Below, piece after piece: positions 21,967-56,215 of a DNA stretch of 62,169 nucleotides. Origin of the DNA: Gemmatimonadota bacterium (lineage in GTDB: Bacteria; Gemmatimonadota; Gemmatimonadetes; Longimicrobiales; Gaopeijiaceae). The stretch is from contig JAPPNO010000001.1 of assembly GCA_028873845.1 (NCBI GenBank), positions 46,993-109,161 on the forward strand, read 5' to 3'. The position numbers and the translations under genes were made by a program. How positions within the stretch are numbered: position 1 is the stretch's first letter; each line of letters starts with the position of its first letter. The notes under the pieces were generated by a model that had not been told where the DNA came from, made no database searches, and saw only the letters and a list, made by a program, of their open reading frames with translations.

Positions 21967-22875
21967 ATGCCCGAACTCCCGGAGGTCTGCCTCTACGTGC
22001 ACGCGCTCGATGCCCGCATTACCGGGCAGCCGTTGGAACGCGTCCGTCTCCGCTCTCCGTCGCTCCTCAAGACCTTCGATCCACCGGTCTCGGAACTCGT
22101 GGGCAAACGCGTGCGGGCCATCGGCCGCATCGGCAAGCGCATCGCTCTTCACCTTGACGACAACCTGCACGCCGTGATCCACCTCATGATCGCGGGCCGT
22201 TTCCAATGGCGGGATCCCGGGGCTCCCATCCCGCGCAAGCGCGCGGCCGGCGCCCTGGATTTTCCCAATGGCACGCTGCTCCTCACCGAGGCGAGCCGGA
22301 AGAAAAGGATGTCGATGTGGGTGGTGCGCGGGGATGAGGCCGTGCGCCAGCTTGACCCCGGCGGCGTCGAACCCCTGGAAGTCGACTTCAGCGGATTCCG
22401 GGCTGCGCTTACCCGCGAGAACCGCACGCTCAAACGGGGTCTCACCGATCCGAGGCTCCTGAGCGGCATTGGCAACGCACACTCCGACGAAATCCTGCTC
22501 GCGGCCCGCCTCTCCCCCCTCCGCCTCACCCGCCAGCTGTCGACCGGGGAACTCCGCCGCCTGTACGACGCCACCCGTGCCTCCCTGCGGGAATGGATCG
22601 AGCGTCTGCAGGCCGAAGCGGGCGGGGAATTCCCGAAAAAGGTCACCGCGTTCCACCCTGCCATGGCCGCCCACGGAAAGTTCGGGAAACCATGTCCCCG
22701 GTGCGGCACCCCGATCCAGCGCATCGTCTACGCCAGTCGCGAGACGAACTATTGTCCCGAATGTCAGACGGGGGGCAGGCTTCTGGCGGATCGGGCGCTG
22801 TCCCGCCTCCTCAAGAGGGACTGGCCGCGCACGCCGGAGGAACTGGAAGCGATTCGCACGCCGGGGAGGGGATGA
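21967..22875 (+). CDS. formamidopyrimidine-DNA glycosylase family (MutM/Nei-like)
   Basis: 302 residues, close to the family length. The catalytic N-terminal proline follows Met in MPELPEV. KKVTAF and the helix-two-turn-helix motif GIGNAHSDEILLAAR (GNIYADE in E. coli MutM) are present, and the zinc finger [24 protein letters not shown] closes the protein. It removes oxidised bases from DNA. The fold is clear, but departures from MutM motifs mean the base preference is uncertain. No obvious operon partner. Its last 110 codons recur, diverged, at 27193-27528. Confidence 0.85.
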   Translation: MPELPEVCLYVHALDARITGQPLERVRLRSPSLLKTFDPPVSELVGKRVRAIGRIGKRIALHLDDNLHAVIHLMIAGRFQWRDPGAPIPRKRAAGALDFPNGTLLLTEASRKKRMSMWVVRGDEAVRQLDPGGVEPLEVDFSGFRAALTRENRTLKRGLTDPRLLSGIGNAHSDEILLAARLSPLRLTRQLSTGELRRLYDATRASLREWIERLQAEAGGEFPKKVTAFHPAMAAHGKFGKPCPRCGTPIQRIVYASRETNYCPECQTGGRLLADRALSRLLKRDWPRTPEELEAIRTPGRG

Positions 22876-23161
22876 GGGCCAACGCGAACATGCAGCGAAC
22901 ATCCAGAGAGGAGACACCGCCCGGTGCCAGCCCGGATCGGTCCACCGGGCCAGTGGTGGCCATACCGCTGCCGACGCCCCAATCGTCCGCTCGGGTGCCG
23001 ATGGCACTTAAGACAGCGATCCCTTCCCCGCCGGCGCTCCAAGCGCTGGGGACCTGGACTCGCCACTGGAGTCCGAAGCTCGGAGCCGAAGTCGACGACG
23101 CTTCGCACCTGGGGGCGGTGGCGGCACCGTCGCACGACGCGACAGCTTAATCGCTCCTTCT

Positions 23162-24181
23162 TTAGGCGCTCGTGTTGGCCCTTTCCTCGATCAAGGCGCA
23201 CCGCTGCATTAGCGTGCCGAACGGCTCGTCCTCGTCCAGCAACATCCCGGTGGCGAGCATGTTGGCGTAGTCTGCGGCGAGCGCATCCTGAGCTGCACCG
23301 GAGGGAACTAGCCTGAGATGGCCCGAGACGGCGGCCTCGTAGTCGATCCTCCGGCCCGTGGAATCGTTCTCGCGGAAGAACATCGCCTTGTGGCGCGCGA
23401 CGGATAGGGCGAGTTCGCGGTCCACCAGAGCCCGTGTCGCGATTCCGGCGTTGTCAAGGCGTACGAGGTCGTGCCAGCGCCTCGACCAGCGCTCGCCGCG
23501 AACGCGCCCCTGAAGGCAGTAGACGTGCATTGCGGTCGCCTTCTCCCAGAACGTGCGCTCGGGCAGCATGGCGGCTGGCCGAGCTTCCGGAAACGCGAGG
23601 TCGGGAAGCCAGGCAGCTGCATCGCACACGACCGTGTGGGCGGCGCGGGGCTCGCCCGTCGAGCGCGCCCCAAAGTCCACCTGCACCTCCGGCCGCACGA
23701 TGCCGCGTACCTCGAACAGTGGATCGTACCGAATGTAGAGCTGCTCGGCCGCCGCCCGTATCCGCGCCACGAACCCGGCGCGGGCGAGTTCTTCCTCGAT
23801 CAGCGGTCTTGCCCGTTCAAGGACCCATTCGGAGAGACGGGGACGGACTGCCCTGGTCCAGCGCCGCTCCTGGCTGCGCGTCGGCGGAAGCGCCTCTTCG
23901 TCGCCTCCCGCAATCAGATCCGGAGCAAAGCTCCGAATGTCGTATGTGATGTCTATGTCTTCGGAGAACCGCCGGATCGCGTGCCAGACCTTCGACAGGG
24001 ATGTGCCGCCCTTGAAGACCAGATGCCGTCCGAACGGAGCCTCGAACAGGGTGTTGAGGGTCGCAACGACCCAGATGTCCTTCTCGAAGAGGAACGCCGG
24101 ATGCGGGCCTTCGGCCTGAGCCCTACGCAGGGCAAGGCGGCGCTCTTCGACCGAGAGATGCTGAAACGCTGTCTCACCCAT
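23162..24181 (-). CDS. AbiEii-type nucleotidyltransferase toxin
   Basis: 339 residues, DUF1814/AbiEii family. The nucleotidyltransferase signature is clear: LVFKGGTSLSKVW followed by FSEDIDITYDI with the paired Asp residues, and LPERTFWEKATAMH further on. Toxins of this family transfer nucleotides to target RNAs and halt growth. The gene begins inside the last codons of its antitoxin (8-base overlap), the usual coupled order antitoxin then toxin. These pairs are often phage-defence or addiction modules. Confidence 0.9.
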   Translation of the reverse strand: MGETAFQHLSVEERRLALRRAQAEGPHPAFLFEKDIWVVATLNTLFEAPFGRHLVFKGGTSLSKVWHAIRRFSEDIDITYDIRSFAPDLIAGGDEEALPPTRSQERRWTRAVRPRLSEWVLERARPLIEEELARAGFVARIRAAAEQLYIRYDPLFEVRGIVRPEVQVDFGARSTGEPRAAHTVVCDAAAWLPDLAFPEARPAAMLPERTFWEKATAMHVYCLQGRVRGERWSRRWHDLVRLDNAGIATRALVDRELALSVARHKAMFFRENDSTGRRIDYEAAVSGHLRLVPSGAAQDALAADYANMLATGMLLDEDEPFGTLMQRCALIEERANTSA

Positions 24182-24770
24182 GCGCGAGACGTGCGCTCAG
24201 CGGCTCCGCCATCCACCGGGGCATGACCGCCCGTGCGGCTGCAAGCTCGTCGAGGTCTTCCTGATTGAGCCTGGGCAGGACCGAATCGAGGCTGTCCTCA
24301 ACCTCATGCGGGCCAAGCCATGCCAGGGCACGGATGACCACTCCCGCCATGCTGTGCGGGGCTGCCAGCTGCCAACGCGGCGCGTGGCGCAGCTCCACGG
24401 GATGCTTGCCGAAGAGCAATCGCCGGCCGCGGCCGGAAGTGAGGTAAACCGAGCGAACCGGATTCTGGTTTGTCAGGCCAAGCCAGTTGGCCGCGCCGCC
24501 TCCGCTCGGAACGATGGTCTCGCCCCAGAGTTTCGAAAGTGAACGGAGCGATTTGTCGACGCTCGGTGCACAGCGCCCGAAACGTGTCTCGATGGGGCGC
24601 ATGTAGACGCCCTGGCAGATCCGGAGGAGTTGCCCCGAGCGGGCCAGGCGCGAGAGAGCCTGATCTACCGCCCCCCGCTTGCCAAGATGAAGCAAGGCAC
24701 TCGGGCAGATCGGCGTAGCCTCGGGCGAGGCCTCGGCGTATTCCATGATCCTTTTGGCCAGACTCTTCAC
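24174..24770 (-). CDS. AbiEi-type antitoxin (DUF6088)
   Basis: 198 residues from the GTG at 24770, which stands behind GAGGGAG; an in-frame ATG at 24824 would add 18 residues lacking such a site. VKSLAKRIMEYAEA and the winged-helix region (ALSRLARSGQLLRICQGVYMRP) match DUF6088/AbiEi antitoxins, which bind the operon promoter and neutralise the partner nucleotidyltransferase. The GGAANWLGLTNQNPVRSVYLT segment is the conserved C-terminal domain. Confidence 0.85.
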   Translation of the reverse strand: MKSLAKRIMEYAEASPEATPICPSALLHLGKRGAVDQALSRLARSGQLLRICQGVYMRPIETRFGRCAPSVDKSLRSLSKLWGETIVPSGGGAANWLGLTNQNPVRSVYLTSGRGRRLLFGKHPVELRHAPRWQLAAPHSMAGVVIRALAWLGPHEVEDSLDSVLPRLNQEDLDELAAARAVMPRWMAEPLSARLAHG

Positions 24771-24824
24771 GGCTCCCTCTTCGTCAGAAATCCGTCCATC
24801 AATATAACGTCTTGGTGCTCGCAT

Positions 24825-26821: not shown

Positions 26822-26972
26822 CTCGGAGCTTCGACTTGGGCTGCGGCCTCGTCGAACCCGTCCGGCCTATTGCTGCCGGGGAACCGCCCGCAGCCGACGG
26901 CTTCCTGAACGACTACCCGACGGTCGAGGGCGCACGCCGTCGCGCTGCTGGAACGGGTGACGGCAAGACTGG
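26822..26972 (+). pseudogene. DUF433 antitoxin C-terminal remnant, copy 1
   Basis: Bases 26877-26972 recur at 30342-30440 with about 93% identity by eye. The frame gives GLVEPVRPIAAGEPPAADGF followed by LNDYPTV, typical of the end of DUF433 antitoxins that pair with DUF5615 toxins. Here it is joined directly to the HEAT-like gene fragment at 26973, so only a stub survives. Confidence 0.55.
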
Positions 26973-27198
26973 ATGGACATAGCCGGGACGCTCAGGAGCT
27001 ACGACGGGAAGCGGGTCGCCCCATTCCGTGCGGTGGCCGAAGCGGTACGGGACGCGTCCGAGCGCGCAGTGCCGCGGCTCCTGGATCTCGCGGCGAGCGA
27101 CGAGGCCGCCCTTCAGGTCGGCGCCATATGGGTGATCAAGTGGCTGGCCGCGCGAGGAGACGGGCCGCGCGGAGAGTCCACCGCGCGGGTCATCGACC
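26973..27198 (+). pseudogene. 5' piece of HEAT-like gene (copy of 32852)
   Basis: The first 75 codons are nearly the same as those of the intact gene at 32852 (shared start MDIAGTLRSYDGKRVAPFR), with scattered substitutions. The similarity ends within TCGACC at 27193-27198, where the sequence switches to a mutM-like segment in another frame. Confidence 0.8.
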
Positions 27199-27528
27199 GG
27201 GGAACTCCGCCGCCTGTACGAGGCCACCCGTGCCTCTCTCCGCGAATGGATCGAGCGTCTGCAGGCCGAAGCGGGCGGGGAGTTCCCGAAAAAGGTCACC
27301 GCGTTCCACCCTGCCATGGCCGCCCACGGAAAGTTCGGGAAACCATGTCCCCGGTGCGGCATCCCGATTCAGCGCATCGTCTACGCCAGTCGCGAGACAA
27401 ACTATTGTCCCGAGTGCCAGACGCGGGGCAGGCTTCTGGCGGATCGGGCGCTGTCGCGCCTCCTGAAGAGGGACTGGCCGCGCACGCTACAGGAACTGGA
27501 AGCGATTCGCACGCCGGGCAGGGCATGA
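27193..27528 (+). pseudogene. 3' piece of mutM-like gene (copy of 22539-22875)
   Basis: Diverged copy of the last 110 codons of the MutM-like gene at 21967, including the whole zinc finger ([10 protein letters not shown]...CPEC) and the closing RTPGR. It is out of frame with the HEAT-like piece in front of it. ATG at 27316 opens a 70-codon frame covering the zinc finger only. Confidence 0.8.
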
Positions 27529-27529
27529 G

Positions 27530-28159: not shown

Positions 28160-28376
28160 TCGGCCCCGGCGGACTTCGAGGAGCTCCACCGTGCGGCCTG
28201 AGGCGGTCTCGCAGGAGCGGGGAGAGGGCGGAGGCTACATGGTTCCGCCCTCTCCTCGTATCATCGGCGCACCACGCCGCCACACCACACCCCAGAGGAG
28301 GAAGGAAAAGAAAGAAAACAGAGAACAGGAACCCAAAGAGTTCACCGTCCGTCAAAGCGGGTCAGGTCCATGACCG
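28160..28376 (+). mobile_element. right-hand end of an IS3-like element (solo remnant)
   Basis: Begins with gcggacttcgaggagctcc, the codons of the transposase ending ADFEELHRA. It continues through about 170 untranslated bases that match the end of the IS3-like remnant at 55876-56205 (shared blocks ggagagggcggaggctac and aaagaaagaaaacagag). The final ccgtcaaagcgggtcaggtc is probably the terminal inverted repeat. No other part of the element is present here. Confidence 0.65.
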
Positions 28377-28410: not shown

Positions 28411-28443
28411 TTGAAAGTTGATCGATAATCGTTCATATTTCAA
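28411..28443 (+). promoter_or_regulatory. candidate promoter and inverted repeat over the DUF4143 ATPase start
   Basis: A local AT-rich island with TTGAAA at 28411-28416 and CATATT 17 bases later at 28434-28439, a fair sigma-70-like pair that leaves an almost leaderless ATG at 28443. TTGAAA and TTTCAA (28438-28443) are inverted repeats, the right arm touching the start codon. A similar arrangement precedes the related gene at 37526. Confidence 0.4.
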
Positions 28444-29612
28444 TGATTATGATTCCCCGAAAGCAGCACTTGGCTCGAATCCGGCTTCTGTTGGACGAGT
28501 TCCCGGTCGTCGCCCTCCTTGGCGCGCGACAGGTTGGCAAGACCACCCTCGCCCGGTCAATGGCGGAGGCGCACCAGGATCCCGTGGCCTGGTTCGATCT
28601 GGAAGACCCGGTCGATCTCGCCCGGCTGGAAACGCCCGGACTCGAGCTTCGGCCCCTGCGTGGCTTGGTGGTCCTGGACGAGATCCATCGGCTGCCGGAT
28701 ATCTTCCAACTGCTGCGCGTTCTTGCCGATCGTCCCGGGTCCCCGGCCCGCTTCCTCGTTCTCGGGAGCGCCTCGACCGAACTGCTCCGGCAGACCTCGG
28801 AGTCGCTCGCCGGGCGCGTCGCCTTTCACGTTCTCGACGGTTTCGACCTTACGGAAGTCGATGACTTGGAGCGGCTGTGGCTGCACGGCAGCTTCCCGCG
28901 ATCGTACCTGGCAAGCTCGGATTCCGCCAGCCGCCGCTGGCGCGACGGCTTCATCCAGACACTTCTGGCCCGCGATCTTCCGGACCTCGGCAGCACTATC
29001 CCGTCGGCGACACTGCGTCGGTTCTGGACGATGCTCGCCCACTGGCACGGCCAACTCTGGAACGGCGCCGAGTTCGGACGGGCATTCGGCGTCTCCCATA
29101 CCACCGTGCGGCGCTATCTGGACCTGCTGACCTCGGTATTCGTGGTTCGTCAGCTCGAGCCCTGGTTCGAGAACATCAGCAAGCGGCAGGTGCGCTCTCC
29201 CAAGGTCTACATCGCGGACTCGGGCATCCTCCACGCGCTGCTCGGGCTCACTGACCGGACGGATGTAACGTCACATCCCAAGGTCGGGGCTTCGTGGGAG
29301 GGGTTCGTCATCCAGCAGATTGTCCAGGTGATGCGGGCGCCGCCGGAGCTCTGCTTCCACTGGTCGACGCACACGGGCGCGGAACTCGACCTGCTGGTGC
29401 TCGATGGATCGAGGCGCTACGGATTCGAGGTGAAGCGTTCGGAGGCGCCGCGGTTGACGCGGTCGATGCGGTCGGCGGTGGAGACGCTGGGACTGGACCG
29501 ACTTGATGTGGTGCACGCGGGGGCGGAGCGGTATCGGCTGGCGGAGAAGGTGCGTGCGCTGCCGGCGGGCGAGTTGGTCCTAGAGTTGCGAGGGTCGGCG
29601 AGGGCGAGGTGA
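28443..29612 (+). CDS. DUF4143-type AAA ATPase, intact
   Basis: 389 residues, full length for this family. Walker A is GARQVGKTT; Walker B is VVLDEIHRLPD; the sensor is VLGSAS. The DUF4143 part carries the winged-helix-like GVSHTTVRRYLDLLTSVFVVRQLEPW and KVYIADSGILHALLG, and the C-terminal nuclease-like fold has THTGAELDLLVL and YGFEVKRSEAP. Such proteins are very common and often occur as repeated accessory genes; their function is not established. Three further relatives lie in this window, all broken. ATG at 28443 is chosen, with 28449 as an alternative. Confidence 0.85.
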   Translation: MIMIPRKQHLARIRLLLDEFPVVALLGARQVGKTTLARSMAEAHQDPVAWFDLEDPVDLARLETPGLELRPLRGLVVLDEIHRLPDIFQLLRVLADRPGSPARFLVLGSASTELLRQTSESLAGRVAFHVLDGFDLTEVDDLERLWLHGSFPRSYLASSDSASRRWRDGFIQTLLARDLPDLGSTIPSATLRRFWTMLAHWHGQLWNGAEFGRAFGVSHTTVRRYLDLLTSVFVVRQLEPWFENISKRQVRSPKVYIADSGILHALLGLTDRTDVTSHPKVGASWEGFVIQQIVQVMRAPPELCFHWSTHTGAELDLLVLDGSRRYGFEVKRSEAPRLTRSMRSAVETLGLDRLDVVHAGAERYRLAEKVRALPAGELVLELRGSARAR

Positions 29613-30059
29613 AGATTCTCCGGCTTGCAGTCACTCGTCGGCGGTCTGGGTGGAACCGCACTCATTGTCCTTCCACGCCCAAGAGCATCCTCGTTGGGTG
29701 CCTTGGACCACTTGTTGCCCCCCCCCACAAACGCTGGCCCGCGCGTGGTGGATCGCCTCGGACATCCGATCTCGCCATCGTCAGGCGGCGCGTGGACGAC
29801 GCTCTCGCGGCGGTCCGGCCTTGCGGCGCGGCGTAGCCGGCCTCGCTCACCGCCGCCAGTCCGGAGGCTGTTGGAGAGTCGGAGACGAAGCGCCCATCGC
29901 ACGATCTTGCCGTCGTCCCACTGCCGGACCGTCAGCTCCCTGAAATTGCGCTGGCCGGCTCCGCACCGAGCTTACCGCGCGACGAAGGAGGTGGGCGCCA
30001 CCGGCGCGCGCGAACGACGAGGTCCCTCGGGGCCAATCCGATAGCCCCGCTTCGGTCCG
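29613..30059. other. about 450 bases without a supported gene
   Basis: Only shadow frames. A C8 run at 29717-29724 would be prone to read errors. Confidence 0.45.
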
Positions 30060-30350
30060 TTATCTCCACGCGGGATAGAATCCGGCCCTTGTGAGAATAC
30101 CGATCTCGTTGCCGTCGGCGCCGGTGTTGATGGTTACAGCAATCTGGCAATTGGCCGGATAGCCTGCTGCCTGTACTGCGCGATCGACTCTTTCTCCAAA
30201 GCTGGCCACTTGCTCCGCCTCAGATTCTCCTTGCGGAGAGTCCTCCAGCACGCTCACGAGCGACGGGGGAATCGTTCGGCGCAACTCAGTGCCAAGGACC
30301 CAGTGCTCGTGCACCGCAACGCTGAACCAGCCATCCTGATGTCCGGGAAC
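30060..30350 (-). CDS. hypothetical protein, probably 5'-truncated
   Basis: About 95 residues with sensible protein composition: GWFSVAVHEHWVLGTELRR, then an acidic stretch, then GYPANCQIAVTINTGADGNE and GILTRAGFYPAWR at the stop. The frame remains open upstream to 30629 but that part overlaps the DUF433/DUF5615 remnant on the other strand, so the true N terminus was probably replaced. I do not recognise the family. Confidence 0.4.
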   Translation of the reverse strand, partial: VPGHQDGWFSVAVHEHWVLGTELRRTIPPSLVSVLEDSPQGESEAEQVASFGERVDRAVQAAGYPANCQIAVTINTGADGNEIGILTRAGFYPAWR

Positions 30351-30533
30351 CGCCCGCGGCCGACGGCTTCCTGAACGACTACCCGACGGTCTCGAGGGCG
30401 CGAGCCGTCGCGCTGCTTGAACGGGTGACGGCAAGACTGGTGGCCGATGACGGATCAACGTGCTGGTGGCCGAATCCGCGCCGGGGCGGCTCGCCGCGGC
30501 GTTTCCCGAGTCGTTCGGAGCGCACACGGTGTA
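30342..30533 (+). pseudogene. DUF433/DUF5615 antitoxin-toxin remnant, copy 2
   Basis: The antitoxin end reads EPPAADGFLNDYPTVSRARA and VALLERVTARL. It runs into the first 27 codons of a DUF5615 PIN-like toxin (RINVLVAESAPGRLAAAFPE) that ends at a TAG at 30533. The expected ATG-Arg start of the toxin is broken by one extra C (atgacggatc). Compare the shorter remnant at 26822-26972. Confidence 0.5.
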
Positions 30534-30653
30534 GCAGGTGGATTCGACCGCATGGTTGACCGGGACGCCCGTGCGGGGCTCGCGCACGGGGCGGCTCGAC
30601 CCCGACAGATGCACTGCTGAACGCTCCACCGACCACGACGGAGAAGCGCCGCC

Positions 30654-31970
30654 ATGTTCGATTCACCAGGGTCTCGGGTCATCGCTCTGAGTGCCGCGCT
30701 GGCGCTCCTGGCGGCATGCGGAGATCCCATCGGCCCCGGTGACCCGGGACTGCCTCTCGAGGAGCTTCCTAGGCCACTCACGCTCGGCGAGGCCACGGTC
30801 ATCGAACGCTCGAACGTCTTCGGTATCGACCTGTTGCGGGAGGTACTCGAAGCCGACGACCGAACCAACGTCGTTCTCTCACCTCTGAGCGCCTCCATGG
30901 TCCTCGCGATGACCCTGAACGGGGCGGCCGGGACGACTCTGGACGGCATGCGCACCGCTCTCCGGCTGGAGGGTCTGTCGCACACGGAGATCAACGATTC
31001 GTATCGGGGGCTGACGAGCCTTCTCACCGGCCTCGACCCGCTGGTGGAGGTATCGATCGCGAACTCTGTGTGGGCCAACGAGCGGTATTCCTTCTACCGG
31101 GCCTTCTTCGATGCCGTCACCGATCACTTCGGTGGGAGAGCCGAATCGAGAGACTTCGGTGACCCGAACACCCTGAGGGAGATCAACGCCTGGGTAGACC
31201 GGAGCACGCGAGGGCTGATCGAACGCATTCTGGAGGAAGGAGAGTTCGATCCCGGCCTCGCTCTCCTTCTCCTGAACGCCGTCTACTTCGACGGCCGCTG
31301 GAGGGCGGGCTTCGATCCCGAAGACACGGGACCGGGGGCGTTCACCCGGGACGACGGCTCGACCGTCACTGTGGACATGATGCACCTGACCGATGTGGAG
31401 CTTCCCTACGGGCGGACGGATGATCTCGTGGCAGTCGAGCTACCCTACGGGCGCGGAGCGTACTCGATGGTCGTTGCCCTGCCGCGGGGAGGGACGCCCA
31501 GGGAGGTCCTGGCGGGGATGGATGCGAGCGGCTGGGATGCGCTGGTCGGATCGTTCGAGCCCCGCGTGCTAGATGGCCTTGCTCTCCCGCGCTTCGTGAT
31601 GGAATACGACTCGTTTCTGAACGATGCGCTGACCGATATGGGCATGGGGATCGCGTTCACCAGGCAGGCCGACTTTTCCGACATCTCTCCCGAGCCTCTC
31701 TGCATGGACTTCGTGCGGCAGAAGACCTTTATCGAGGTCGACGAGGCGGGTACCCGGGCGGCGGCCGTGACGGCCGTCGGGGTCAGGGCTGTATCGTTCT
31801 TCGGCTTCCAGGTGGATCGTCCCTTTCTCTTCGCTATACGCGAACGTCTCTCCGGCACCATCCTGTTCATCGGCGTGATCGGAGACCCAACCGTCAGGGA
31901 CTCCGGCCCGGCGGAGTTGCCCGACCCCTGCGATGGGCGCGTCTGGCGGGGACACGCGGACAGGGGATGA
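30654..31970 (+). CDS. serpin-family protease inhibitor, lipoprotein
   Basis: 438 residues. Lipobox ALLAACGD puts the mature protein on a membrane surface, outside the cytoplasm. The serpin fold follows: NVVLSPLSASMVLAMTLNGA, LNAVYFDGRW, and the reactive-loop hinge FIEVDEAGTRAAAVTAV, whose run of small residues after Gly-Thr fits an inhibitory serpin. The RPFLF motif follows the loop. By spacing from the hinge, the scissile bond would lie near VRAVS, perhaps Val-Ser, which would favour elastase- or subtilisin-like targets. It lies in the decayed repeat zone yet is itself intact. The last 25 residues are an extra tail beyond the serpin fold. Confidence 0.9.
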   Translation: MFDSPGSRVIALSAALALLAACGDPIGPGDPGLPLEELPRPLTLGEATVIERSNVFGIDLLREVLEADDRTNVVLSPLSASMVLAMTLNGAAGTTLDGMRTALRLEGLSHTEINDSYRGLTSLLTGLDPLVEVSIANSVWANERYSFYRAFFDAVTDHFGGRAESRDFGDPNTLREINAWVDRSTRGLIERILEEGEFDPGLALLLLNAVYFDGRWRAGFDPEDTGPGAFTRDDGSTVTVDMMHLTDVELPYGRTDDLVAVELPYGRGAYSMVVALPRGGTPREVLAGMDASGWDALVGSFEPRVLDGLALPRFVMEYDSFLNDALTDMGMGIAFTRQADFSDISPEPLCMDFVRQKTFIEVDEAGTRAAAVTAVGVRAVSFFGFQVDRPFLFAIRERLSGTILFIGVIGDPTVRDSGPAELPDPCDGRVWRGHADRG

Positions 31971-32083
31971 GGCCTGCCTCCCGTCCTGCCTCGACGTCAT
32001 TCCACAAGAGCGTCCCGGCTCGGTCCGGCGGTGAGACTGCAGCCCAGGGACAGGACTCTGGCGAGGCGGAGCCAGAGGTGCAT

Positions 32084-32840
32084 GGCTGCCCTCCACGGAC
32101 AGGACTCTCGCCGCGGCCGGACCGGAGCTGGCGGCTGCGTGGGTGAGCGGGTCGCCATCGGAATCGTAGAAGAAGGGCGAGAGGTCTACGGCGACCGTCT
32201 CCCCGCTCGGCACAGCTTGGGACGGGTGCGGGCCCATGGCTACAGGTTCCCCGTTCGGCACCGTCACCGAGACGGCCTGCCGAGCCGATAACCCCTCGGG
32301 ATCGCCTCCTCTGACCGTGATCCGCGCATCTCCCCGGACGACGCCCCTGACCGTTGTCAGGTGGTCCTCCGTCCCCGCCGTAACTGACGCCATGTTCTCA
32401 CTTACAGCGCTGTAGCTCAGCGGGTTTCCATCCGGGACTTCGAAGTCAGGGGATGCGCATACCTTGAATCTCTTCCCAGCGGTGAGCGTCTGGGACAGGA
32501 TGCTGTTCATTGTACGGCGTCCGCGATTGGGCACCGTCACGTCGAGGGTTTGTCGAGCCGGCATTGCGCCGGGATCGGCTGCTCTGACCGTCACCGCGGC
32601 TGCTCCGACTTCAAGCGGAGTCACCGACCGAAGGCTTCAGTGACCGACACAGAAACCACTGTCATACTTGAGGTTGCAGCCATGTGGGCTAGGTTGTCAC
32701 GATCCCGATTGTGGAAGTACGTGGAGAGATCCACCGTTGCCATCTGGCCAGGGTTGGCGGTCTTTGCGGGGCTCGTGCGGACCAGAGTCGGCTCTCGGCT
32801 GGGGACGGCAACAGCTACGGCGTGCATCGCCGCGCGAATT
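32084..32840 (-). pseudogene. cadherin-like/Ig-like repeat protein, decayed
   Basis: Three successive modules of about 85-90 residues can be read on the minus strand. Each has a 'pdqtv..G' lead, an acidic core and a VTVPN end: VDLSTYFHNRDRDNLAH, then FEVPDGNPLSYSAVSE with SARQAVSVTVPN, then VDLSPFFYDSDGDPLTHAAA. A frameshift lies near 32624. The gene is cut at one side by the HEAT-like gene and runs out before 32050 on the other. Such tandem modules normally form large surface proteins. Confidence 0.6.
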
Positions 32841-32851
32841 GAGGGAGCACG

Positions 32852-33370
32852 ATGGACATAGCCGGCACGCTCAGGAGCTACGACGGGAAGCGGGTCGCCC
32901 CATTCCGTGCGGTGGCCGAAGCGGTACGGGACACGCCCGAGCGTGCAGTGCCGCAGCTCCTCGATCTCGCGGCGGGCGACGAGGCCGCGCTTCAGGTCGG
33001 CGCCACATGGGTAATCAAGTGGCTTGCCGAGCGCGGGGACGCGCCGCGCGGGGAGTCCACCGCGCGGGTTATCGACCTCCTCGACCATGTGGAGGAGCCG
33101 GACGGGCTCCTGCACCTCCTGCAGATACTGCCGCACATGGAGCTGCCCGCCGACCGCACCGTGGCGCTCAACCGCATCCTCAGGAGGCTCATCCGGTCGC
33201 GGCGCGTGTTCCTGCGGGCATGGGCGTACAACGGACTCGGGGTAATCGCCGCGGTGGAGCCGGGGTTCCGCGATGAGGTAGAGGCACTGTTCGCGGCAGC
33301 CGAGGAGCGGGAATCAGCGGCCGTCAGGGCGCGCATCCGACACGCGAGGGCTGGCCTGGCTTCCAGCTAG
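32852..33370 (+). CDS. HEAT-like repeat protein
   Basis: 172 residues, all-helical with repeating hydrophobic pattern: DEAALQVGATWVIKWLAERG, DGLLHLLQILPHMELPAD, FLRAWAYNGLGVIAAVEP. Looks like a complete small HEAT/armadillo-type protein; function unknown. ATG at 32852 is preceded by gagggagcac. A second, cut copy of the first 75 codons is at 26973. The gene is directly head-to-head with the decayed cadherin-like gene. Confidence 0.6.
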   Translation: MDIAGTLRSYDGKRVAPFRAVAEAVRDTPERAVPQLLDLAAGDEAALQVGATWVIKWLAERGDAPRGESTARVIDLLDHVEEPDGLLHLLQILPHMELPADRTVALNRILRRLIRSRRVFLRAWAYNGLGVIAAVEPGFRDEVEALFAAAEERESAAVRARIRHARAGLASS

Positions 33371-47121: not shown

Positions 47122-50100
47122 ATGTTGAAGATCCGGGTAGGCAACCACGGGCGGGGACTGTGGGCGGCACCTCTAACGATCCTCGCGGTAGCTTCGGCCA
47201 CCGCCTGCGGCGACAGCGCCACCGAGCCGCCTGCCCCGGCGCCCCCCGATCCCCCACGGCCCACGACCGTGATGGTGAGCCCGGCCACGGCCGAGCTAGC
47301 CGCGTTGGGCGCGACCGTTCAGCTGACGGCCGAGGTGCGAGACCAGGCCGGGCAGATTATGGCGGGGACTGCGGTGTCCTGGTCGAGCGCCGACCGCTCC
47401 GTCGCGACGGTGGACGCCTCCGGTTTGGTGCGGGGTGCCGGGGAAGGCGTGACGACGATCACCGCGTCATCGGGGTCCGTGCGGGGAACGGCCGAGATCA
47501 CGGTAGTCGACGCGGACCGGGCCGTGCTGGTCGCGCTCTACCAAACCACCAACGGCTCCGAATGGCTCGAAAACGACGGCTGGCTGTCGGATCGGCCGAT
47601 CGGACAATGGCAGGGCGTGACGACCGGGTCGGATGGGTGCGTCACCGCCCTGCATCTCTCGGCGATCAATCTGGTCGGGTCGATTCCGCCGGAACTCGGT
47701 AGCCTGACCTGTCTGGAGACGCTCGATTTCGAGCGCAATGATCTGGCGGGACCGATCCCATCTGAACTGGGCGACCTCTCCAGCCTCACGACGCTGAACC
47801 TCGGCGTAAACGAACTCACCGGACGGATCCCGCCGGAACTGGGCGATCTGGCCGGTCTTGAGACCCTTCGGCTTCGCCGGAACGACCTGACCGGACCGGT
47901 CCCACCCGAACTGAGCAACCTGCGCAACCTCAGGAGACTGGGGCTCGAAAGGAACCAGCTCACGGGGTCGATTCCGCTGGCGTTCCTGGAGCTCGACCGG
48001 GTTCAGACGTTGCACTTTGGAAGCAACGACGGTCTTTGCGCTTCCGGGTCGACGGACTTTCGAGCGTGGTTGGCGGAGCTCGATATCTACGTGGGCCCGC
48101 TGTGCGATGAGCGCGACAAAGCCGTGCTCGCGTCGCTGTATGAGACCGGCGGCGGAACGGCCTGGGCCCGCTCGGACGGGTGGCTTGGGGACGGTGGGCT
48201 GAACGACTGGTATGGCATCGACTCCGACTCGCTCGGGCGGGTTGTCGGAATCGATCTCTCAAACAATGGAATGTCGGGCCGCGTCTCCTCGTCGTTGGCG
48301 CGGCTCAACGGCCTGACCTCTCTCAAGGTCGGCGGGAATCCCGACCTGGGCGGTCCGTTGCCGCTGTCACTGTCCGCGCTCTCCCTCCAGGAATTTCACT
48401 ACGCGGACACCGGTCTCTGCATCTCGCCCGCCCGGTCATTCGGCGAATGGCTGGGCGCGATTCCGTCGCACGAAGGCACTGGCACGGAGTGCTCCGACCT
48501 CACCGACCGGGAAATCCTGGCGTTGCTGTACGAGGCAACCGGCGGAGCCCGCTGGACCGACGATGAGCACTGGCTGTCCGACCGGCCTCTCGACGAATGG
48601 AAGGGAGTCACGACTGACCCCGATGGCGGCGTGATCTATCTGTTTCTCAGCTCCAACAACCTGACGGGGCTGGTTCCGCGGGAACTGGGCGGCCTCTCCA
48701 GCCTGATCGACCTGCGCCTCGAGTCCAACAACTTGACCGGACCGATTCCGCCCGAACTGGGCGGCCTCTCCAGCCTCGCGCTGCTGGACCTCAGGTCCAA
48801 CGACCTGACCGGGCCGGTCCCGCCCGAACTGGGTGGCCTCTCCAGCCTGACGACGCTATACCTCGGGTCCAACGACCTGACCGGGCCGGTCCCGCCCGAA
48901 CTGGACGGCCTCACCAGCCTCGCGCTGCTGGACCTCGCCGGGAATGACTTGACGGGGCCGATTCCACCCGAACTGGGCGGCCTCTCCAGCCTGATCGACC
49001 TGCGCCTCGGATCCAACAACCTGACGGGACCGATTCCGCCCGAACTGGGCGACCTCTCCAACCTCGCGCTGCTGGACATCGCGGCGAACGACTTGACGGG
49101 GCCGATTCCGGCGGAACTGGGCGGCCTCTCCAACCTGACGTCGCTGAACCTCAGGTCCAACGACCTGACCGGGCCGGTCCCGTCCGAACTGGGCAATCTC
49201 TCCGGGCTGACCTGGCTGAACCTCGGACTCAACGACCTGACGGGGCCGATTCCGCCCGAACTGGGCAGCCTGTCCAACCTGAGGTCGCTATACCTCGACG
49301 GTAACCATCTGACGGAGATTCCGCCCGAACTGGGCGACCTCTCCAGCTTGGCGACGGTACGGCTCCATGGAAACAATCTGACGGGCCCGATCCCCTCCGA
49401 ACTTGGCAGCCTGTCCAACCTGAGGTCGCTACATCTCTACCGTAACGATCTGACGGGCCCGATCCCGGCGGAGCTGGGCTCTCTCTCCGGGTTGCGTCAT
49501 CTGTTGCTCATGGGGAATCAGCTGACGGGCCCGATCCCGGCGGAACTGGGTGATCTCACGTCGCTGCTCCGGCTCCACCTGACCAACAACCCGGGAATGT
49601 CCGGCCCCCTGCCCCGGAGCATGGCGGCGCTCGGCCGGCTGGACGAACTCCTGTTGAACGGTACGGGTCTCTGCGCACCCGACGACGCCGACTTCCAGGA
49701 GTGGCTGTCGCGGGTTCAGATGGCACAGGTGCGGCGGTGCGAGACGGCGCAGGGTTCGGGGGCGTATCTGACGCAGGCCGTACAGTCGTCGGCGTTCCCC
49801 GTTCCCCTCGTCGCGGGGGAGGCGGCGCTGCTCCGCGTCTTCGTGACGGCCTCGCGGAGTACGAGCGAGGGCGTCCCGCCGATGAGGGCGACGTTCTACG
49901 TTGACGGCACCGAGACCTATGTAGCCGATATTCCGGGCTCCGAGATCCCCATCCCCACCAACGTGGATGAGGCCGAAGGAGCGCTCGAAAAATCGGCGAA
50001 CGCCGAGATCCCGGGATCCGTCATACGGCCGGGTTTGGAGTTTGTCGTCGAGGTCGACCCCGCCAACGAGCTGGATCCCGGACTCGGAGTGACGCGGCGG

Positions 50101-51246
50101 ATCCCCGAGACGGGCCGGGCGAAGGTCCGTGTGGAGGCGATGCCCACCCTCGATGTCACCTTCGTTCCGTTCGTGTGGGCCGCAGGACCCGATTCGTCGA
50201 TCGTCGATATTGCGGAGGCCATGGCCGCGGATCCGGAGGGACACGAACTGCTATGGTATACGCGGACGCTGCTCCCGGTCCGCCACCTCGACGTGAAGGC
50301 CCACGAACCCGTCCTGACGTCGACGACGGACGTCTACACGCTCCTGCGTGAAACCAGCTTGGTCAGGACCCTGGAGGGCGGGACGGCCAAGTACATGGGC
50401 ATCATGCCGGAACACGTCATCGGCGGCCGGTCAGGGCTTGCCACCATCCGCGGTTTCAATGGCTTCAGCTCCGCCACCTCCTATGTGATAGGCCACGAAC
50501 TGGGACACAACCTGAGTCTCCGTCACGCACCCTGCGGGGGCGCCGGCGGCCCGGATCAGGCATTTCCCCACGGAAACGGGACGATCGGCGACTGGGGATA
50601 CGATTTCCGCGACGGCGGGGCCCTGGTACCGCCACAGAAGCCGGACCTCATGGGCTATTGCGGTCCTCCGCGCTGGATCAGCGGTTACGGGTTCACGAGA
50701 GCCCTGAACTATCGACTCCGGACCGAAACCGACGCCAGCGCATCCGCCCGTGCCGTGGAGGCTCCAACGAGAACGCTCCTGCTCTGGGGCGGCGTCGACG
50801 CCCGGGGCGAGCTCTTCCTCGAACCCGCCTTCGTGGTGACCGCCCCGCCCGCCGTGCCGCCCTCCCCCGGCGAGTACGAACTCATGGGCCGTGAGGGAAC
50901 CGGCGGTGAGGTGTTCTCGTTGAGCTTCGACATGATGGAAACAGCGGACGGCGATGGCCGGGCATTCTTCGTCATCTCGCTGCCGGCGCAGGCCGAGTGG
51001 GCCAGCCGATTGGCGAGCATTACGCTGTCCGGGCCCACGGGATCGGCCACAGTGGACCGGACCACGGACCAGCCCATGACCATCGTGCGCGATCCGGTCA
51101 GCGGCCAGGTCCGCGGCATCCTGCGCGATCCGTCTCCAGCCGACATGGCTGGCAACGGGGTGGCGGTCGGGATGGGAGGCCGTTCGAGCCTGGAAACCGC
51201 AGTGAGCAGAGGCATCCCGCGCGACGCAGATTGGAGCCGGGAGTGA
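47122..51246 (+). CDS. Big2-LRR-metalloprotease lipoprotein
   Basis: 1374 residues. N-terminal signal with Cys29 (ASATACGDS). Residues about 48-130 are a bacterial Ig-like Big2 domain (VMVSPATAELAALGATVQL ... TVVDAD). Then three caps of the type LVALYQTTNGSEWLENDGW each precede plant-type LRRs (LTGPIPPELGGLSSL), the third block with about 14 repeats of 24 residues. The rest is a secreted protease: HELGHNLSLRH at residues 1125-1135 gives the three zinc ligands and general base of a metzincin-like site (Ser where Gly is usual), with a Met-turn candidate DLMGYC at 1177. Predicted surface enzyme, LRRs for binding a partner. Substrate unknown; function inferred from architecture. Confidence 0.8.
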   Translation: MLKIRVGNHGRGLWAAPLTILAVASATACGDSATEPPAPAPPDPPRPTTVMVSPATAELAALGATVQLTAEVRDQAGQIMAGTAVSWSSADRSVATVDASGLVRGAGEGVTTITASSGSVRGTAEITVVDADRAVLVALYQTTNGSEWLENDGWLSDRPIGQWQGVTTGSDGCVTALHLSAINLVGSIPPELGSLTCLETLDFERNDLAGPIPSELGDLSSLTTLNLGVNELTGRIPPELGDLAGLETLRLRRNDLTGPVPPELSNLRNLRRLGLERNQLTGSIPLAFLELDRVQTLHFGSNDGLCASGSTDFRAWLAELDIYVGPLCDERDKAVLASLYETGGGTAWARSDGWLGDGGLNDWYGIDSDSLGRVVGIDLSNNGMSGRVSSSLARLNGLTSLKVGGNPDLGGPLPLSLSALSLQEFHYADTGLCISPARSFGEWLGAIPSHEGTGTECSDLTDREILALLYEATGGARWTDDEHWLSDRPLDEWKGVTTDPDGGVIYLFLSSNNLTGLVPRELGGLSSLIDLRLESNNLTGPIPPELGGLSSLALLDLRSNDLTGPVPPELGGLSSLTTLYLGSNDLTGPVPPELDGLTSLALLDLAGNDLTGPIPPELGGLSSLIDLRLGSNNLTGPIPPELGDLSNLALLDIAANDLTGPIPAELGGLSNLTSLNLRSNDLTGPVPSELGNLSGLTWLNLGLNDLTGPIPPELGSLSNLRSLYLDGNHLTEIPPELGDLSSLATVRLHGNNLTGPIPSELGSLSNLRSLHLYRNDLTGPIPAELGSLSGLRHLLLMGNQLTGPIPAELGDLTSLLRLHLTNNPGMSGPLPRSMAALGRLDELLLNGTGLCAPDDADFQEWLSRVQMAQVRRCETAQGSGAYLTQAVQSSAFPVPLVAGEAALLRVFVTASRSTSEGVPPMRATFYVDGTETYVADIPGSEIPIPTNVDEAEGALEKSANAEIPGSVIRPGLEFVVEVDPANELDPGLGVTRRIPETGRAKVRVEAMPTLDVTFVPFVWAAGPDSSIVDIAEAMAADPEGHELLWYTRTLLPVRHLDVKAHEPVLTSTTDVYTLLRETSLVRTLEGGTAKYMGIMPEHVIGGRSGLATIRGFNGFSSATSYVIGHELGHNLSLRHAPCGGAGGPDQAFPHGNGTIGDWGYDFRDGGALVPPQKPDLMGYCGPPRWISGYGFTRALNYRLRTETDASASARAVEAPTRTLLLWGGVDARGELFLEPAFVVTAPPAVPPSPGEYELMGREGTGGEVFSLSFDMMETADGDGRAFFVISLPAQAEWASRLASITLSGPTGSATVDRTTDQPMTIVRDPVSGQVRGILRDPSPADMAGNGVAVGMGGRSSLETAVSRGIPRDADWSRE
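48652..49570 (+). repeat. 72-bp tandem coding repeats (LRR block)
   Basis: About 13 units of 72 bases, each encoding a 24-residue plant-type LRR; one unit near 49310 is three bases shorter by two residues (LTEIPPELG). Units are very similar at the DNA level, so copy number could change by recombination or be mis-assembled. Confidence 0.75.
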
Positions 51247-55242: not shown

Positions 55243-55908
55243 GTAGCGGGGAGGGCGGGATCGGGACTGCACGGCGAGCCACGGCGAGTTGGGCATCGAG
55301 GGCGTGACGCGCAGGCGCTTAAAGGCGGGGACGAGGAAGCGGGACGCCAGGGCCAGGGCCGCGCCGGAACTGGTAAACCAGGACTTCTCGGCCGATGGGC
55401 CGGACCAGCTCTGGGTCGCCGACATTACCTACGTGCCCACCTCGGCCGGTTGGCTCTACCTCGCGGTCGTGCTGGACGTCCAGAGCCGTCGGGTCGTGGG
55501 CTGGTCGATCGCGAGGCAGATGCCGACCCAGCTGGTCACGGACGCACTTACGATGGCGGACAGGCGCCGCCAGCCGAAGCACGGGCTGGTGCATCACTGC
55601 CGCTTGACAAACATGAGAGCGTCCAGGGATCGCAGTACACCTCGACCGCTTTCGGAGAGTTCTGCCGAAACGCTGGGATCCGGTAGTCCATGGGCTTGGC
55701 CGGAGACGCCCTGGATAACGCGCTATGCGAGAGCTTCTTCGCGACCCTCGAGACAGAACTGATCGGCCGCCGGCGCTTCGCGACGCTGGCGGGGGCGCGG
55801 CGTGAGGTCTTCGGCTTCATCGACGGATTCTACAACACTCGCAGGTCGCACTCGGCTCTCGGCTACATCTCGCCGGCCGACTTCGAGGAGCTTCACCGTG
55901 CGGGCTGA
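55243..55908 (+). pseudogene. IS3-family transposase (OrfB), N-truncated with shifts and a stop
   Basis: The rve integrase core is readable in pieces: QLWVADITYVPTSAGWLYLA and VLDVQSRRVVGWS (first Asp), HGLVHH / GSQYTSTAFGEFCRNAGIR (second Asp region; one frameshift), then an in-frame TAG at about 55684 before SMGLAGDALDNALCESFFAT with the catalytic Glu, ending SPADFEELHRAG. The N-terminal domain and OrfA are missing. Confidence 0.75.
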
Positions 55909-56215
55909 GGCGGACTCGCAGGAGCAGGGAGAGGGCGGAGGCTACCTGGTTCCGCCCGCTCCTCGTATCATCGGGGCCGCACGCCGCCACACCACACCCG
56001 AGAGGAGTCCTACAACAACGGCTGGCTCCTCCAGCGACACGGGTACATGACCCCGGCCCGTGCCCGCGAGAAGTTCAGCCGGAAGGCGGCCTGATGTTTA
56101 AGCCGTCCACTTGTCCAAGAAACCGGGACCGGTACAGAGGAGAGAAAAGAAAGAAAACAGAGACCAGGAACCCAAGAAGTTCACCGTCCGTCAAGACGGG
56201 GCGGGTTTAGCTGAA
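55909..56215 (+). mobile_element. IS3-like right end interrupted by a second IS end
   Basis: The untranslated end matches 28196-28376, but about 130 bases are inserted at 56008-56140. That insert encodes the closing residues of another IS3-type transposase (NNGWLLQRHGYMTPARAREK, then FSRKAA and a stop) and ends in ccgggaccggtacagagg. The right end then resumes (aaagaaagaaaacagag) to about 56215. Confidence 0.65.

Follow-up and report, generated by a model that had tools for sequence, protein, structure and literature searches.

An intact gene for a predicted serpin lipoprotein in a Gemmatimonadota genome, transferred singly between genera and bearing a clade-specific cysteine pair

Why a complete gene for a serpin, the product of which would act as a protease trap, stands among gene remnants in a Gemmatimonadota genome, and against which proteases it might be directed, are the questions raised by a locus on contig JAPPNO010000001.1. 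We analyzed the serpin gene within a stretch of 62,169 nucleotides, in the following called the window, and compared it with serpin loci and genomes of relatives. The features of the locus are as follows.

30654..31970, plus strand: serpin lipoprotein gene, ATG start, 438 aa, 0 internal stops
30654..30719, plus strand: signal peptide and lipobox LAAC with predicted lipidated Cys22 (sequence)
30810..31889, plus strand: serpin domain, residues 53-412 (Pfam PF00079)
31701..31703, plus strand: Cys350, second residue of strand 5A at the foot of sheet A (Cys in 16/17 clade rows and 0/44 others; strand limits from the model)
31743..31814, plus strand: reactive centre loop from P17 Glu364 onward, with hinge EAGTRAAAVT and Arg instead of Glu at P13 (sequence, alignment)
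31791..31796, plus strand: predicted scissile bond P1-P1', Val380-Ser381 (spacing from P17; structural alignment with miropin)
31890..31967, plus strand: C-terminal tail, residues 413-438 (alignment), fast-evolving in the pair with homologue L032
31929..31931, plus strand: tail cysteine Cys426, proposed to form a disulfide with Cys350 (both in 18/19 clade copies)
30616..31975, plus strand: DNA block common to the window and RHO1_bin_49 (L032), 84.6% identity (blastn)
30337..30440, no strand assigned: left flank debris, copy of 26871-26972, overlapping fragment 30357-30541 (DNA matches)
31971..32851, no strand assigned: right flank debris, including a portion of a frame on the minus strand that weakly matches an Ig-like domain (Pfam)

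The reading frame is a real, intact, full-length serpin gene. Profile PF00079 (MEROPS I4) was matched over positions 3-370 of 370 with 313.5 bits (cut-off 27; E 2.9e-93) as the sole Pfam domain, and the best PDB sequence match was miropin (5ncs, 3.8e-69, phmmer). The initial annotation had called the frame undamaged, and besides being free of internal stops it is also kept in L032, an 82%-identical homologue. For the tree and the cysteine counts, 68 serpin rows were taken from the available loci, identical ones being used once, and seven were dropped, namely the fragments L050, L056, L059, and L060 and the non-Gemmatimonadota sequences L033-L035, so that the tree contains 61 rows from Gemmatimonadota only. 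The closest 17 rows (at least 51% identity) form a clade with support 100/100, in the following called the closest clade. The leader MFDSPGSRVIALSAALALLAAC was judged by eye to consist of a signal peptide and the lipobox L-A-A-C with Cys22, in agreement with the lipobox noted before. The lipobox cysteine is also kept in L032, a cysteine occurs within the first 48 residues of 59 of the 61 Gemmatimonadota serpins examined, and a lipobox-like pattern was detected by regular expression in 45 of them. The window serpin is probably an envelope-anchored working protease trap.

That serpins are rare in bacteria, as stated at first, is not true of the Gemmatimonadota. Matches at E <= 0.001 were obtained, the own genome counted, in 15 of 23 genomes of the genus, 90 of 154 of the order, and 183 of 395 of the phylum; at the same threshold the Pfam serpin profile was matched in 36 of 59 relatives, again with the own genome counted, and 3 of 14 control genomes also had serpin matches. 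By these phylum counts, serpins are ordinary in this group, and the source genome (4.05 Mb, 137 contigs) itself carries a second serpin on contig 75, which is 45% identical to that of the window. Adjacent pairs of serpin genes were seen in several relatives (G081 C11, G015 C122, G011 C38, G042 C180, and G053 C297).

The neighbours of the gene had been described as eroded, which is correct for the directly adjoining DNA on both sides. On the left, 29613-30653 (~1 kb) consists of fragments, with 30044-30339 matching one relative and fragment 30357-30541 being matched in the DNA of nine relatives from the genus. On the right, 31971-32851 is fragmentary as well, and its Ig-like match (Big_9) reaches 21.2 bits, under the Pfam cut-off of 23.6. 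The description does not apply to the genes ~1 kb away: the DUF4143/AAA gene at 28443-29612, left of the debris, is intact, and a 172-codon frame at 32852-33370 is matched at the DNA level in 18 of the other 22 genomes of the genus and is stop-free in all 8 genus loci examined. To compare neighbourhoods, 16 stretches with clade members, L032, and 18 kb of the window were used, with greedy ORFs of at least 90 aa clustered by blastp; beyond the serpin, the largest common clusters were present in 5, 3, and 3 of these 18 regions, and no protease was found as a conserved neighbour. Elsewhere in the window, a dispersed repeat occurs at 28166-28367 and 55873-56206, consisting of two blocks 92% and 87% identical, the distance between which differs from copy to copy. 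The region 47122-51246 encodes a 1374-aa protein with a Big_2 domain, many leucine-rich repeats, and strong internal DNA repetition, a surface protein of a eukaryote-like type. An AbiEii-type nucleotidyl transferase toxin with an AbiEi-like/DUF6088 partner is encoded at 23162-24824 on the minus strand.

Selection on the serpin, also proposed initially, was assessed by dN/dS against L032 as the sole close homologue. The maximum-likelihood dN/dS (omega) was 0.171, with 2 delta lnL of 117 against omega = 1 (438 codons), a value that describes one homologue pair and includes the time before transfer. By NG86, dN was 0.097 and dS 0.399, and dN/dS was 0.18 for the body, 0.17 for the loop, 0.07 for strands 4B-5B, 0.44 for the signal, and 0.39 for the linker. 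In tail residues 414-438, 16 nonsynonymous changes and 1 synonymous change were counted and the cysteine was kept; this ratio differs from that of the rest of the gene (P 3e-5). Positive selection on the tail is not claimed, as 16 and 1 changes are approximately neutral against 57 nonsynonymous and 18 synonymous sites. The branch lengths of the window copy and L032 in the tree (0.092 and 0.08) are similar, so the window copy is not evolving markedly faster. The serpin gene is kept under purifying selection and is not drifting.

That this copy was transferred is indicated by the edges of the DNA block that it shares with L032. Similarity begins 38 bp upstream of the ATG and stops 5 bp downstream of the stop codon. 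Apart from this block, L032 matches the window DNA only in parts that are 14-20 kb distant, where identity is 64-77% and the arrangement differs. From contig number and coordinates, L032, G059, and G140 were taken as one genome, which belongs to the same family as the window genome (G000). RpoB was searched in 17 genomes and matched in 15, of which G034 and G077 were left out as fragments, leaving 13 genomes and 78 pairs. Over the 77 other pairs serpin identity tracks RpoB identity (r 0.75), whereas the pair G000-G140 lies 7.8 sd above this trend, with serpins 84.3% identical and RpoB 75.1% identical over 1218 residues. For G139, another member of the genus of G140, identity to G140 is 82.1% in RpoB but only 56.4% in the serpin. 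In the tree, the window serpin and the G140 copy form a pair (support 100/100), and the inherited serpin of the genus, including the copy on contig 75, forms a separate clade (100/100). No comparable copy was found in any other of the 23 genus genomes, where the next best match was 52% over a 127-residue fragment and full-length serpins were 42-48% identical. The mismatch between RpoB and serpin, the limits of the block, and the separate inherited clade together show horizontal transfer of little more than the coding sequence. The exchange, with a different genus of the family, thus involved this one gene.

Possible carriers and an insertion site were looked for as well. A search of viral contigs with query P0001 yielded no relative, and the plasmid search yielded only distant serpins (108 records, all <60% identity, best listed 37%). 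Serpins L156-L160 are located on contigs classed as viral in IMG/VR, that of L159 inside a frame uninterrupted over the full 4.2-kb stretch from a 128-kb contig. No match in another genome spans both flanks of the gene; the two flanks match different relatives separately. As a candidate for an empty site, 26871-27198 was considered, where the left piece is joined straight to the gene start at 32851, and was rejected: it runs into a third copied piece, which makes the sequence a mosaic unusable as proof of insertion. The whole region 26871-27529 consists of three copied pieces end to end, 91-95% identical to 30337-30440, 32851-33077 (the 5' end of the 172-codon frame), and 22540-22876 (the 3' part of a formamidopyrimidine-DNA glycosylase gene), and is either a gene-fragment mosaic or an assembly chimera. 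On the RHO1_bin_49 contig, decayed fragments of another serpin (L059 and L060) lie ~9-11 kb before the 82% homologue; their identity to the serpin of contig 75 is 62-87% over 23-40 residues.

In the reactive loop, the hinge EAGTRAAAVTAV comprises residues 364-375. The consensus of inhibitory serpins from P17 to P9 is given as ExGTEAAAA in the accessible text of PMC8233489. The corresponding EAGTRAAAV of the window serpin follows it with deviations: P17, P15, P14, and P12-P10 match, P13 is changed from Glu to Arg, P16 is Ala, and P9 is Val. Apart from these deviations, the proper inhibitory hinge claimed initially is supported; P17 Glu, P15 Gly, P14 Thr, P12-P10 Ala-Ala-Ala, and P8 Thr are found in all 17 rows of the closest clade. 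At P13 these rows have Arg (13), Lys (3), or Thr (1), and 43 of the 44 rows outside the clade have Glu, so the Arg of the window serpin counts against an inhibitory reading. Of the breach and shutter residues, equivalents of S53 and S56 are kept in the window serpin and in all clade rows but one truncated sequence (16 of 17), and those of N186, W194, and T203 in the window serpin and all 17 rows. The position of shutter residue His334 is occupied by Gln, which also counts against an inhibitory reading, though nearly all serpins of the phylum sample have Gln here (57 of 61, with His in 4); His is present in all 8 non-Gemmatimonadota rows.

Structure prediction with AlphaFold from ten sequences gave five models with mean pLDDT from 59.7 to 87.1. 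In the best model (87.1), strand 5A comprises residues 349-362, and residues 366-379 form a strand directly after it and beside it. This model superimposes on protease-cut miropin with 1.1-1.2 Å over 323-331 residues (Z 45.1-46.5); for miropin 5ncu, Foldseek gave E 2e-40 and VIA Z 45.7 with rmsd 1.1 over 328 residues. Failure of the loop to insert in models had been named beforehand as an argument against the proposal, and the loop came out inserted in the pLDDT 87 model. The loop-inserted, relaxed model shows that insertion is geometrically accommodated, while inhibition itself stays a prediction; AlphaFold may favour this form of a serpin whatever its activity. The structural alignment closes with model residue 337 (= residue 380) opposite miropin residue 369, at which the subtilisin-induced chain 5ncu ends. 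Chain 5nct, induced by trypsin, stops one residue before, at 368; different proteases can thus cleave a serpin at adjacent bonds. Counted from P17, P1 is expected to be Val380 and P1' Ser381, and this Val-Ser bond, deduced earlier from the spacing to the hinge, agrees with the alignment of Val380 to the end of the 5ncu chain.

Val at P1 would suggest elastase- or subtilisin-like targets, and proteases of these types would be the candidates for the window serpin. Across 19 clade copies, P1 is T in 10, V in 5, D in 2, F in 1, and R in 1. The clade serpins L136 and L137 have Asp at P1 (GPD-S), suggesting targets among Asp-specific proteases. The initial annotation had considered a protection of the cell against its own secreted proteases. 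In this view, an inhibitory serpin would act as a safety device with an own secreted protease, an S1A lipoprotein-like enzyme or an S8 enzyme, as its main target. The genome encodes two S1A proteases, C32 (L149) and C130 (L150), with lipoprotein-like leaders and extra N-terminal domains as judged by eye. The residue six before the catalytic Ser, placed by trypsin alignment for the first only, is Ser in one and Gly in the other and not Asp, as expected for a small or hydrophobic P1 such as Val, so that both enzymes could accept Val380. These two secreted-looking enzymes with non-tryptic pocket residues count against purely external targets. S8 matches are present on three contigs of the own genome, the best being C41, and the serpins of sponge-associated Thaumarchaeota frequently adjoin S8 endopeptidases according to the available part of PMC6790972. 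Matches to S1A were also obtained in 14 other genus genomes, the best being 67-97% identical.

The distribution of the S1A enzymes argues against such an own target. For the test, clade genomes were the 17 with a match of at least 52% identity over most of the protein, and short fragments of at least 52% were left unclassified (e.g., G051, G083, G088, G095, G098, and G141). Among the 154 genomes of the order, the S1A family of the own genome occurs in 3 of the 17 clade genomes and in 23 of the 137 others (Fisher P = 1), and the co-distribution of any serpin with S1A gave P = 0.83. An own S1A protease was therefore rejected as the leading target, and the guard against own secreted proteases found no support either in this comparison, which covers S1A across genomes, or in the neighbourhoods, where no protease is conserved. 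Together with the varying P1, the lack of an S1A association and of a conserved neighbour gene fits changing proteases from outside better than one own enzyme. We consider an own protease as main target rather improbable.

The most distinctive trait of the closest clade is a pair of cysteines. In 16 of its 17 rows, which group together within the clade (support 95/94), two cysteines follow the lipobox, one in the Cys350 column and one in the tail behind the domain. Among the 44 serpins outside the clade there is no Cys in the Cys350 column and none in the last 30 residues; L088, one of them, has two unrelated cysteines, one just before the Cys350 column. When two tandem copies are added, 18 of 19 clade copies bear the pair, with a spacing of 76 in 16 and 77 in 2. 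The tail Cys is the second last residue in 15 of the 18, and beyond the lipobox Cys none of the 18 has any cysteine but these two (one copy is without its N-terminal part). The exception, G078, which branches first in the clade, is without the two cysteines and the tail; this pattern points to a single gain of the entire device or a single loss, and the pair accordingly counts on the tree as a single event and not as repeated independent ones.

The compartment in which exported lipoproteins reside is oxidising, and the pair is therefore most naturally read as an intramolecular disulfide. It implies a putative clade-specific Cys350-Cys426 bond that would tie the tail to the foot of strand 5A. 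Strand 5A rises to the hinge and the inserted loop returns beside it, so with the strand limits of the model Cys350 would adjoin the P3-P2 end, at the pole holding the trapped protease. Cys426 is the fourteenth residue past the Pfam domain, and fourteen residues would be about enough to span the sheet if extended. Alternatively, the two conserved cysteines might not be bonded to each other, the tail Cys pairing with another protein or the residues serving as a metal or redox site. The tail has pLDDT <50 and hence no placed position in the model, and its Cys, mostly second last, would be easily accessible, both of which are in line with this alternative. It is nevertheless unlikely, since the two cysteines occur, or are missing, as one set with the tail, keep their spacing, and are the only post-lipobox cysteines of the 18 copies.

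That the protein is a non-inhibitory serpin, its fold being kept for binding or structure and loop insertion being blocked by the tail disulfide or the changed P13, is very improbable: although P13 is Arg or Lys in 16 of 17 clade rows and the Cys pair is found in 16 of 17, with the 5A-foot Cys placed by the model beside the would-be inserted P3-P2, the hinge residues P14 Thr, P12-P10 Ala, and P8 Thr, of the type usually lost in non-inhibitory serpins, are invariant (17 of 17) and the loop is inserted in the model.

The explanation we prefer, and regard as probable although far from certain, is a functional inhibitory serpin of the envelope that was transferred, is selected, carries a strapped tail, and has mainly external targets. 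A serine protease, elastase- or subtilisin-like and possibly others, would cut Val380-Ser381; before deacylation, the loop would enter sheet A as strand 4A and drag the covalently bound protease to the far pole, thereby disabling it, while the lipid anchor would hold the serpin in the cell envelope. The gene would most likely be retained to shield the cell surface from the proteases of others (host, predators, or competitors) and not for one dedicated own protease, and the tail tied by Cys350-Cys426 would be a strap stabilising sheet A in this exposed location. By mechanism the protein would be an ordinary inhibitory serpin and by structure a new variant, and its gene was exchanged singly between genera.

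A more far-reaching and doubtful proposal is that the disulfide closes a strap that follows sheet A, from the breach-side C-terminus to the 5A foot, and sets how easily the sheet opens as a redox-dependent latch, and that members of the clade move from genus to genus as lone genes with an interchangeable P1. If so, the trap would be closed and long-lived when oxidised outside the cell and loosened when reduced. As serpins must stay metastable for long, the combination of tail and disulfide would be a new answer that is directly testable, and single-gene transfer with exchange of P1 would make the serpins of the Gemmatimonadota a tractable case of protease-driven selection. The window alone is a moderate finding, a normal inhibitory serpin in a serpin-rich phylum. 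No description of Gemmatimonadota serpins or of such a tail was found in searches of a library of open-access papers, most subscription papers being outside that scope; in the available main text of PMC10469786, PMC10581226, and PMC8163846 "serpin" was counted 0 times, and in PMC8233489 "gemmatimonad" 0 times.

Of the known systems, miropin of Tannerella forsythia (PDB 5ncs, 5nct, 5ncu, and 5ncw) is the best match in both sequence and structure. It is 36-37% identical to the window serpin, and the loops start alike, with EEGTEAAAVTAV in miropin and EAGTRAAAVTAV in the window serpin. The loop centre is VKT-SS in miropin and RAV-SF in the window serpin, whose prime side is five residues shorter. 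In the aligned stretch miropin, unlike the window serpin, lacks a Cys both where strand 5A begins and at the C-terminus, and the accessible text of PMC8233489 ascribes a single disulfide to it. According to the same text, prokaryotic serpins solve the problem of metastability by tails (thermopin, tengpin) or by disulfides (aeropin, miropin), and aeropin of Pyrobaculum (cf. Pnserpin) has a C-terminal tail and two stabilising disulfides. One of these is named as Cys102-Cys136 in the part of PMC5297747 available and, unlike the proposed Cys350-Cys426, does not join the tail to strand 5A. For sponge-associated Thaumarchaeota, the available parts of PMC6790972 and PMC7848895 report expanded secreted serpins, for which the authors propose a regulation of own endopeptidases or of host proteases; these serpins, compared by description only, are archaeal, and no such tail is described in those parts. 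The tail of thermopin from Thermobifida fusca, also compared by description only, is described as lying at the sheet top, and the descriptions available mention no disulfide of this kind, whereas the 5A-foot Cys of the window serpin suggests a longer strap. Antithrombin has a disulfide near its C-terminus, Cys247-Cys430, in which the partner of the C-terminal Cys belongs to another part of the fold than the foot of strand 5A, to which the tail would be tied in the window serpin.
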